DNA from: Coprinus comatus
Lineage: Eukaryota > Basidiomycota > Agaricomycetes > Agaricales > Agaricaceae
Assembly (NCBI GenBank): GCA_034638255.1
Contig: JAWPGT010000002.1
Span: 1,674,001 to 1,738,000 of the forward strand
Length of the DNA: 64,000 bases
Direction: 5' to 3'
A program made the translations under genes and the position numbers. This document shows positions 47,385 through 50,638 of this stretch, piece by piece; positions within the stretch are counted from its first letter, which is position 1, and each line of letters opens with the position of its first letter. The notes under the pieces are model-generated. The model ran no database searches, was not told where the DNA came from, and saw nothing but the letters and a program-made list of their open reading frames with translations.

Positions 47385-47995
47385 TTCCCCCACCGCTTAC
47401 TTCAAATACAAGCGTAGTAGAACCAACAAGACCAACACATCAGCCCAAGGCCGCCGTTGTAAGCGTAAATTCCACCAAACATCGACAGGTACTCATTGAA
47501 GCAGGCAGGACGAACGATGCTATCGCACAGGCCGGTTTTTCCTCGAGAACCATTTCCACAAAGCTACTCCGAGAGGCGCTGCAACACGTGTAGTTGGAAG
47601 AACTACCCAAATCTCCCCAATACAAAGAAGCATACTTCATTACTCAAGTCAGCGTCGTGGAATTACTAGCTACTCAAGGCACGTTCATTATGCTATTTCT
47701 AATTTAACTTTTCTCAGCCGTGAATATAGGACCTGAATTTAATCTCCCGTCTGCTATTGCCTTCTTCAAAGCACTACGTATATACCCCCGCCCGGCAAAT
47801 GGATCTGGTTATGATCTACCAGAAGCACGACACGAGCCCATCTTCAAGGCAAGTATCGGTTTCACATGTCACAGCTGATGCCGAGCCTAGCTCATCCCAG
47901 ACCTCAGTTGGTGATGGACCTATAATGTATCTCGAAGGAAATCCGCCATCAGTGCCCCATACACAAATTATGTCTTGGAGTCGGTTAACAAGATG
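47385..47995 (+). pseudogene. Decayed tandem copy of TOM20
   Basis: This lies between the SMEK start and the intact TOM20, in the same direction as TOM20. Recognisable pieces in order are AYFKYKRSRTN (cf. VYFDYKRRND), LLREAL, then an in-frame TAG at 47591-47593, YKEAYFITQVSVVELLATQ, and after an intron-like gap GPEFNLPSAIAFFKALRIYP. Then MDLVMIYQK appears in a second frame, and EPIFK back in the first. Both intron positions of TOM20 are retained, but their donors have become GC (gcacgt, gcaagt). So this is a DNA-level duplication, not a retrocopy. No intact first ATG/anchor exon and no SET-donor exon could be found. Confidence 0.85.
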
Positions 47996-48273: not shown

Positions 48274-49045
48274 ATGACTGACCAGCGGAAGAACGTGTTG
48301 ACCATCGCCGCAGTCACCGTGGCCACCGGTGTCCTCGCTTATGCCGTCTATTTTGACTACAAACGCAGAAACGACGCCCAGTTCCGCAAGAAACTCCGTA
48401 TGTCTTTCCCTTTGCTACCACAGCTATCCCTTATACCAGTCATGTAGGCAAGGAGAAGAAGCGTATCAGCAAGGAGGCAGCACAGGAAAAGTCCACCTCG
48501 TCTGGCCCTGCTGTCCCCGGGTCTTCCGATATCACCACAGACGTCCTACGCGAGGCTCTAGAGGCCATTAAAAATGAACCCACTCCCGAAGGTGAAGAAA
48601 AGGAAACCTACTTCATGACACAAGTCGGAATGGGCGAGCAGCTCGCCGCCCAAGGTGTGTCGTCACCCATTCTAAACCTAAACATTTCTAATATGCGTGT
48701 TCGTCGCGTCCAGGTCCTGCATACTACCTACCCGCAGCCATGGCATTCTACAAGGCCCTCCGTGTGTACCCCTCCCCTGTAGAGTTAATTGTCATCTATC
48801 AAAAGACAGTGCCCGAACCCCTCTTCAAGGTATGCTCTGCTTGCTTGCTTTGCTGTACCACTCGCTAAGCTTTCAAACAGATCATCATTGAGTTAACAAA
48901 TATGGATGTGAGTGAACCTCCCTCACACGATGAGCGCCTCGCGAGCGACCCTCAGGGGGAAGTAGGATCAGGAGCAGCTAGCCCAATTCACAGTGGCCCA
49001 CCCTCTGAAACATCATCTCAAGAGTGGGATAAGCTCTCCGATTAA
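48274..49045 (+). CDS. TOM20: Mitochondrial import receptor subunit TOM20 (intron-retained form)
   Basis: Outer-membrane receptor that binds presequences for the TOM complex. The exons are 48274-48397, 48448-48654, 48714-48829 and 48881-49045, and the product is 203 residues. The N-terminal anchor is VLTIAAVTVATGVLAYAVYF followed by the basic DYKRRND stop-transfer. The receptor core is EKETYFMTQVGMGEQLAAQG, AMAFYKALRVYPSPVELIVI and EPLFK-IIIELTNMD. The C-terminal tail is acidic/Ser-rich and ends GPPSETSSQEWDKLSD. Inside the last exon, after NMD, the bases GTGAGT form a strong 5' splice site (48908). This protein is made only if that site is not used, or if the transcript ends early. It is the intact relative of the decayed copy at 47385-47995. 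Confidence 0.93.
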
Positions 49046-50638
49046 TCCTTTTCTACTCGTGGTTGGAATGGAAAAGGGTCAGGGACGTTGTAATACGAAC
49101 ACTCACATCCATACGTCTCATGCTCCTTGTCATTGCAACCCTCCCATGTTCATAACTCTCCTTGCGTCATTTTTTTGCATATAACACTTTCTAATACATA
49201 TTTTCTTGCATGTTTTCTTTGTTGCGTTTAGGTTGCCGCTAGAGCTTCTGGTGAGTATATTATTTCTGATTACAGAGCTAAGGAATTTATCAAACCTTCA
49301 GGTTACTATGACCATTTTCCTCCCAAGTCTATGAACGTCGAAATTCACCCTACTGAAAATGGACGTAGAATTGCCATCGTCACCAAAGACATTGTAGCTG
49401 GAGAGGTCATCTATAAGGTACATAAATTAATTCATATCAGTACCCACATGTCACATTGATTACTATTGATGTGTAGGAATACCCAGTTGTAGCTGTCCTT
49501 GATGCTGACTTGGAACCCGCCGGCAAATATTGTTCGCATTGCTTCAAAACAATTCAACAGCCTCTTGCTCCAGAATCTCAACTTCCCAAGGATTCGAACC
49601 CTCTCGGAAGCACTTACTGTTCTGAACAATGTCTCAAGACCAGTAAAACTCAGTCAACTTCTCTCCTCTTCACTCTCGAACCTCCTCTTCCACCCGAGTT
49701 GGCCCCTGGCTCTAGCCCAACTCTTAATACCGAAGCACGTAAAGAAGCTCAAACTAAATTCATTGAATTCATCAAGAAAGAAAAACGTGCTGCTCCTCTG
49801 CTTGTAGCAAGATTTATCGCTAGACAGGTTGCTTTGGAGACAGCTAAATTGGCCGGAAAGAAAGATAAAGTTGTCAAAGAAGCAGACTTTACAGATGCTG
49901 ATGCTGGTGACTATCTGCTTGCTGATCATATGGAAAGGTTGAGGTACTTGGAGGTTAAGCCTAATGAAGAGGAATTGCCTTTGCTTTCGAGGGTTTTGGA
50001 AACTACTTTGCCTGGATTGGAGCAATTTGTTACCGATGACAGACATTCGACTTTGGTTGGGAAGATGATGTATAATGCTATTGGTGTTGCTTTCGATGGC
50101 GGTAGGGATGACAAGGTTCGTTACTTTATGCTCTTTTCTTGTGTGTCTGTCTGTATTCTGACTCTGAGACAATATACAGCCCGAACCTTCGACTAGACCT
50201 GAAGAGGTTGAAAAGACACGAACTGAACTTGGAACTCAAAAACAAATTGGTTCAGCTTTATATACCCTTTCTTCATACCTCAACCACTCTTGTAACCCAT
50301 CTGCAAAAGTAACATTCCCTTCAGGAACGACTGCGTTAACTGTAGTGGCAAACAAAGACCTTAAGAGAGGAGATGAAGTTACTATTTCTTATGTTGACGT
50401 TAACCAGCACGATGATGAAAGCATCATGGAGTGCAGAAGGAGAAGGAGGTTTGAATTGGCTAGGGGTTGGAGATTTGGTTGTCCTTGCGATAAATGTGTT
50501 GACGAAGGTCTTAAAGAATTGAGTGTTGAAGAACAAGGAAAGGAGAAACAGGAGGAGAAGGATGAGAGTAAAATCGAAGATAGTGCCAGGAGGTTTGAAG
50601 AGGAAAAGCAACAGGCTTTGAATGGTGATGTTGAGTAA
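48274..50638 (+). CDS. TOM20-SET fusion: predicted SET-domain protein from the same locus by alternative splicing
   Basis: If the GTGAGT at 48908 is used, 324 nt including the TOM20 stop are removed to TTTAG at 49231. Exons 48274-48397, 48448-48654, 48714-48829, 48881-48907, 49232-49250, 49302-49417, 49477-50115 and 50180-50638 then join with every phase correct (1,707 nt, 568 residues). The join reads ELTNMD-VAARAS-GYYDHFPP. The second half is a SMYD/Set5-like SET domain: NGRRIAIVTKDIVAGEVIYK, a MYND-like cysteine cluster (YCSHCFK and YCSEQC), LYTLSSYLNHSCNPSAKVTF (catalytic NHSCxP), KRGDEVTISYVDV and the post-SET FGCPCDKCVDEG, with a Glu/Lys-rich tail. Such a protein would place a methyltransferase on the cytosolic face of the outer mitochondrial membrane. 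The alternative is a separate gene starting at the Met at 49331, but the 19-nt exon 49232-49250 and matching phases argue for fusion. Confidence 0.78.
48908..49231 (+). promoter_or_regulatory. Alternatively retained intron containing the TOM20 tail and stop
   Basis: 324 nt, much longer than the 50-60-nt introns around it, bounded by GTGAGT and TTTAG. The first 138 nt code for the TOM20 C-terminal tail and stop. The rest is T-rich and includes AATA-type sequence (49180-49200) that could serve as an internal polyadenylation region. Confidence 0.7.

Follow-up and report, generated by a model that had tools for sequence, protein, structure and literature searches.

In Coprinus comatus, one TOM20 gene appears to give rise to two proteins, a plain import receptor and a TOM20-SET fusion, which would be chosen between at a composite terminal exon; the role of the SET-like arm carried by the fusion is more likely binding or scaffolding. 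We place the probability of this reading at about 0.82. TOM20 is a central import receptor of mitochondria and is commonly portrayed as a small protein that stands alone. The two-product reading is well supported by the structure of the locus and by comparison with relatives.

Two predicted products of the TOM20 locus

The locus spans positions 48274-50638 on the forward strand of the window, the 64,000-nt stretch of contig JAWPGT010000002.1 analyzed here. It was the only intact TOM20 found by a search of the 35.7-Mb genome, the assembly of which may be incomplete. Apart from this locus, the search returned only a decayed upstream copy (Table 1) and a match on contig C67 with an E value of 0.13. 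The decayed copy, which precedes the intact gene by about 400 nt, has an intron-like gap at the equivalent place.

We rebuilt the exon chains of both products. Exons 1 to 3 joined to the long terminal exon encode a receptor of 203 amino acids followed by TAA, and the same three exons joined to the short form of exon 4, a 19-nt microexon, and exons 6 to 8 encode a fusion of 568 amino acids (1,707 nt), the phases of which close. All seven introns of the fusion are GT-AG; six of them measure 50-64 nt and one 324 nt. The introns sum to 658 nt for the fusion and 160 nt for the receptor, and the receptor stop codon (49043-49045) sits within the 324-nt intron. Thus, a donor is present inside a terminal coding exon, and the alternative exons downstream of it are in frame. 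The first-pass annotation had proposed one locus with two proteins, and its coordinates, its phases, and the internal donor at 48908 were all recovered in our reconstruction.

Table 1. Features of the TOM20 locus and its upstream neighbor (positions in the window).
Feature	Positions	Strand	Basis or remark
Decayed partial TOM20 copy, outside both products	47543..47866	+	E 1e-12, 38% identity; one TAG, one TAA
Exon 1, start codon and N-terminal membrane anchor, both products	48274..48397	+	exon chain; hydrophobic residues 8-26
Exon 2, TOM20, both products	48448..48654	+	exon chain; MAS20 match
Exon 3, TOM20 TPR-like core, both products	48714..48829	+	exon chain; MAS20 match
Terminal exon of the plain receptor: core end, acidic tail ...SSQEWDKLSD, TAA	48881..49045	+	tail conserved in relatives
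Exon 4, short form, fusion	48881..48907	+	exon chain
Internal 5' splice site GTGAGT, also coding for Val-Ser of the receptor tail	48908..48913	+	Val-Ser there in 48/72 readable receptor rows
324-nt intron of the fusion: receptor tail and a candidate receptor 3' UTR of about 186 nt	48908..49231	+	poly(A) use predicted
Branch-point-like CTAAT, 40 nt upstream of the acceptor of the 324-nt intron	49191	+	sequence
19-nt microexon, encoding VAARAS and the first base of a Gly codon	49232..49250	+	peptide conserved in fusions
Fusion exon 6: YYDHFPPK, start of the SET-like arm	49302..49417	+	exon chain, alignment
Fusion exon 7: zinc-finger half of the arm and helical insert	49477..50115	+	exon chain, alignment
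Fusion exon 8: SET core (NHSCNP, SYVD), post-SET cysteines, stop	50180..50638	+	exon chain; Pfam SET

Profile searches against Pfam agreed with the domain content of the products. The MAS20 profile matched with 134.5 and 138.3 bits (cut-off 27) and the SET profile matched the window fusion with 40.9 bits (cut-off 22.4), so that the in-frame join through the 19-nt exon, as claimed in the first-pass annotation, connects two domains that both score above threshold. The SET arm contains the NHSCNP, SYVD, and CPCDKC motifs. In the TOM20 part, which has the TPR-like receptor fold, no 19-residue stretch is more hydrophobic than residues 8-26 (mean 1.95), as predicted for a single N-terminal anchor.

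Should splicing bypass the donor at 48908, the transcript would end within the 324-nt intron or keep it, and a plain TOM20 with its acidic tail would be made. Splicing from this donor would instead remove the tail, add the 19-nt exon, and join TOM20 to a Set5-like SET arm with the SMYD fold. The fusion would retain the anchor and the receptor core unchanged, and we infer from the unchanged anchor an outer-membrane location, with the arm on the cytosolic face of mitochondria. The RNA ends used, the location of the products, and the action of the arm are thus predictions from sequence. Receptor level may in this way be coupled to enzyme level.

Two further features of the fusion frame were observed. 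The 51-nt intron that follows the microexon (49251-49301) is in frame and stop-free (ORF 49232-49459), and its retention would lengthen the fusion by 17 residues. Near the C terminus, mushroom fusions carry a motif with the consensus K-D-E-S-K-V-E, which in the window reads K-D-E-S-K-I-E (50558-50578); at least 90% of 58 aligned fusion rows share its D and S residues.

The junction and the plain receptor in relatives

Relatives were compared as protein records (given here by P numbers) together with the sizes of their contigs, most of the fusion and receptor records being automatic gene models. Among the 120 fusion relatives listed out of 270 matches, 114 contained both PF02064 and PF00856; the remaining six comprised four SET-only proteins and two MAS20-only proteins of fusion length. 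A query with the Dacryopinax receptor core gave a similar picture, with both domains in 112 of the 120 matches listed from a total of 198. The closest relative of the fusion among those listed was a Macrolepiota protein, 72% identical to the query across 98% of its length. The fusion arrangement is therefore present in other basidiomycetes, a check that the first-pass annotation had called for.

For the junction itself, we aligned 58 of the 120 listed fusion rows (alignment A1), which were picked for clean junctions, so that the A1 junction counts lean toward the join. In these clean models, the microexon peptide was gap-free and mostly read V-K-x-R-V-E-G followed by Y-Y-x-x-F-P, with V in 46, K in 40, R in 49, V in 39, E in 49, and G in 51 of the 58 rows. 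After the microexon, the two tyrosines were found in 57 and 52 rows and F-P in all 58. The presence of both domains in 114 of 120 relatives and a gap-free, conserved microexon peptide indicate that the TOM20-SET join is not due to chance. In other models (for example, P0062, P0071, P0078, P0094, and P0096), the residues preceding Y-Y are unrelated, as expected for models that overlooked the microexon and in which the next exon begins at Y-Y. Two fusion contigs extend only 112 nt (P0026, with a frame of 611 amino acids) and 218 nt (P0063) beyond their frames, which is less than the 658 nt of fusion introns. These contigs are thus either cDNA or intronless, and in both cases the join is present in the nucleotide sequence. 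In the predicted structure of P0001 (pLDDT 83), the last TOM20 helix (147-166) spans the microexon residues (161-167), which suggests that the arm would be held near the receptor core.

In several models, including P0006, P0050, P0051, P0080, P0089, P0106, P0117, and P0272, the SET arm is joined after the acidic tail (SSQE/DWDK followed by a VKxRVEGYY-like sequence). A classification of the 285 collected proteins placed 35 in this tail-retaining class, P0105 among them wrongly, as the regular expressions used made at least two errors (P0192, which has no junction, and P0105, a direct join). Such models point to a possible second donor, with a third product, in some species. No GT is present in the window at the after-tail join point that they use. 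Separately, an NDUFAF3-like PF04430 domain accompanies the SET arm in four Boletales models (P0047, P0057, P0070, and P0105) and follows it in P0047 and P0057. We did not retain it as part of the system, given that tblastn gave no convincing match in the window (best E 2.0), and these models probably represent merged neighbor genes.

The receptor search yielded 145 matches, of which 120 were listed; 72 rows reach the core end and 48, in which the match stops short of the splice point, were dropped. Val-Ser was found exactly at the splice point in 48 of the 72 readable rows, and all 48 also had W-D/E within their last 70 residues. Among the receptor-only rows named to species that could be read, all 23 from mushrooms and Dacrymycetes carried Val-Ser; these are all Agaricomycetes or Dacryopinax. 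At least four of the dropped rows (P0150, P0166, P0210, and P0227) have Val-Ser past the core. The 24 rows lacking Val-Ser consisted of three fusion junctions, one row running into an intron, and 20 receptors. These receptors come from other fungi, for which our lists hold no fusion, and Val-Ser was present in 0 of 20 there; they comprise 11 ascomycetes, four of the same type, four Tremellomycetes, and Microstroma. Because GTGAGT spells Val-Ser, the dipeptide appears to be an imprint of the donor in the receptor sequence.

The acidic tail was less specific. A W-D/E ending without Val-Ser was present in 5 of the 20 receptors from fungi with no visible fusion (four Tremellomycetes and Microstroma) and also in Violaceomyces (P0281). 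Thus, the tail alone is no proof of the switch, and we dropped it as a mark of the switch; judging from these sequences, the tail predates the switch or extends more widely than it does. Receptor-only contigs were also inspected. P0135 extends 121 nt beyond its frame, which is shorter than the 160 nt of receptor introns, and so it cannot hold introns of window size. Among 19 of the 25 Val-Ser rows beyond the 23 named to species, the contigs measure 0.7-2.6 kb with no clear gap, some being 0.7-1.4 kb, and contig ends do not equal RNA ends. These sizes fit early RNA ends and retention of the intron alike. An apparent division into two contig size classes, considered as a sign of two RNA ends, was abandoned on recount.

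The annotation of relatives also raises the question of whether the locus might consist of two adjacent genes, TOM20 and a separate SET gene starting near 49331, in which case the fusion would be an annotation artefact. Four relatives are indeed annotated in this way: the TOM20-only and SET-only models have consecutive locus numbers in three of them (P0104/P0122, P0114/P0123, and P0119/P0142) and lie on equally long contigs in the fourth (P0081/P0121). Such pairs indicate that gene order is conserved and that the choices of the annotators differed. GC3 is also much higher in the exons of the TOM20 core, at 0.64, than in those of the SET arm, at 0.36 (p 2e-9). We nonetheless consider two separate genes very improbable, since the microexon peptide and the YYxxFP motif are conserved upstream of the supposed start, with Phe-Pro kept in 58 of 58 clean-junction rows and the methionine encoded at 49331 in only 37 of them. 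Moreover, the split model P0081 takes the microexon in another frame (its FRLPLELLV equals the other-frame translation of the window), the cDNA-size contigs P0026 and P0063 contain the join, and Mucoromycota show the same join. In GC3, the receptor tail (0.43) was indistinguishable from the SET exons (p 0.34); as a result, codon composition is no more than suggestive of two levels of expression.

The opposite account, that the fusion is the only real product and that the tail frame is an ordinary intron with the receptor-only records mis-annotated, would agree with the many relatives annotated as fusion only and with the absence of the acidic tail at the join in five Mucoromycota fusions. It is hard to reconcile with a tail conserved as protein (GPPSE-A/T-SSQEWDK-like), with related endings in SET-less receptors of Ustilaginomycotina and Tremellomycetes (P0188, P0281, and P0170), or with receptor contig P0135, and we regard it as highly unlikely. 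The conserved tail likewise bears out the acidic-tailed receptor that the first-pass annotation had put forward as the alternative product. A bicistronic RNA, in which the TOM20 and SET frames share one transcript but are translated separately, could also account for a plain receptor. Polycistronic RNAs are reported to be widespread in Agaricomycetes (Gordon et al. 2015; PMC4503453), which keeps this possibility alive, and readthrough transcripts were reported at 314 loci of Plicaturopsis crispa (PMC4503453). Three receptor-only contigs (P0149, P0152, and P0156) leave 1.8-1.9 kb past the frame, enough for a SET frame; long RNAs of this kind fit intron retention in the two-product model equally. 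The inconstant SET start methionine and the conserved residues before it argue against separate translation, and the words TOM20, MAS20, and SET domain are absent from the main text of PMC4503453. Overall, we attach very little weight to a bicistronic origin and favor alternative use of the donor at 48908.

Activity and age of the SET-like arm

The first-pass annotation described the arm as a SET methyltransferase. The catalytic NHSCNP and the post-SET cysteines are present in the window, and the alignment shows that the fusion keeps N451, H452, C454, and Y487; however, an active enzyme is not established by these residues, because the active site is poorly conserved across the fused family. 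The asparagine of NHSC was N in only 16 of 161 aligned sequences, window included, and the first active-site tyrosine was Y in 106 of 161, window included. In the Mucoromycota fusions, Asn, His, Cys, and post-SET were lost in all five, while the fold persists. These alignments suggest that the arm may often be non-catalytic, that it may methylate in species keeping the active site, including the window species, and that binding or scaffolding is the likelier candidate for its most conserved function.

Other SET loci of the genome were used for comparison. Three loci related to the arm, on contigs C8, C19, and C17, all have an intact NHSC. The nearest of them, on C8, shows 46% identity over about 103 residues and keeps both NHSC and SYV. 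The arm has a Trp in place of the second Tyr of SMYD3; the same Trp is present in the C8 locus, and we therefore dropped it as a sign of a dead enzyme. No zf-MYND match was found by Pfam in the window protein up to E 1, with the four cysteines kept; the Mucor and Fennellomyces relatives pass the zf-MYND cut-off and Bifiguratus falls below it.

The arm begins at the same residue after the core, gap-free, in two Calocera proteins and in Mucor, Benjaminiella, Circinella, Fennellomyces, and Bifiguratus. Calocera belongs to the Dacrymycetes and the other five to the Mucoromycota. Judged by these alignments, the TOM20-SET fusion is older than the first-pass annotation had supposed. In a midpoint-rooted tree of the arm (34 rows), the five Mucoromycota grouped together (100/100) and the basidiomycetes mostly followed known orders, with Calocera beside Tulasnella at weak support (81/82) and not outside Agaricomycetes. 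Descent, rather than recent transfer, would fit this tree best. The simplest reading would be a single origin before the split of Mucoromycota and Basidiomycota with later losses; two independent fusions at the same point may also have occurred. No fusions from Tremellomycetes, Ustilaginomycotina, or Pucciniomycotina were present among the 120 listed of the 198 matches.

A broader, tentative proposal, which we hold somewhat less probable than even, is that the ancestor of Mucoromycota and Basidiomycota had a TOM20 with a Set5/SMYD-like arm that served a conserved job at the import gate other than methylation, and that a splice/poly(A) switch in mushrooms sets the number of receptors wearing the arm. 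A job other than methylation is suggested by the Mucoromycota, which keep the fold, the zinc cysteines, and the junction without the active site, and by most basidiomycete fusions examined, in which the SAM-motif Asn is changed.

Related systems and implications

The switch between the secreted and membrane forms of immunoglobulin mu uses a donor inside a terminal exon, so that competition between splicing and poly(A) use sets the C terminus. The layout of the TOM20 locus is the same, with poly(A) use predicted here; the choice would instead determine whether an import receptor carries a SET-like arm. Compared with known TOM20/MAS20 receptors (PF02064; Chaetomium 9i7s), the core in the window continues into the SET arm in one of its products. 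With respect to SMYD2 and SMYD3, the window protein lacks a Pfam MYND match and thus a complete MYND finger, P0001 aligns to SMYD2 only at about residues 6-302, and the active-site Asn and Tyr are not conserved in the fused family. Among Set5-like SET proteins, the nearest relative of the arm elsewhere in this genome is the C8 locus, and no MAS20 match was found on its contig.

Ding et al. (2022) described a group of fungal SET genes, Group 25, with MAS20 upstream of SET and no members in Ascomycota (PMC9692433). The window locus has the same domain order, MAS20 then SET in one gene, and would thus belong to this group by sequence. The accessible portions of that account mention no receptor-only product, internal donor, membrane location, loss of the active site in Mucoromycota, or microexon. 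The literature searches run here returned no published account of a two-product TOM20/SET switch and only PMC9692433 for the MAS20-SET pair; a Ganoderma SET gene described as overlapping another gene concerns a P450, not a MAS20-SET pair, in the accessible part of its source (PMC11590231). Thus, the MAS20-SET architecture was already recorded, and the switch and its depth apparently were not.

Beyond C. comatus, many mushrooms, Calocera, and some Mucoromycota also encode a TOM20 with a large SET-fold arm, which offers a case of a methyltransferase fold kept while its active site eroded. Because both forms would come from the only intact TOM20 found here, it becomes testable whether RNA processing is linked directly to the composition of the import gate. 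If the ancestral-arm proposal is true, RNA processing would serve to adjust protein import into mitochondria or local translation at their outer membrane.
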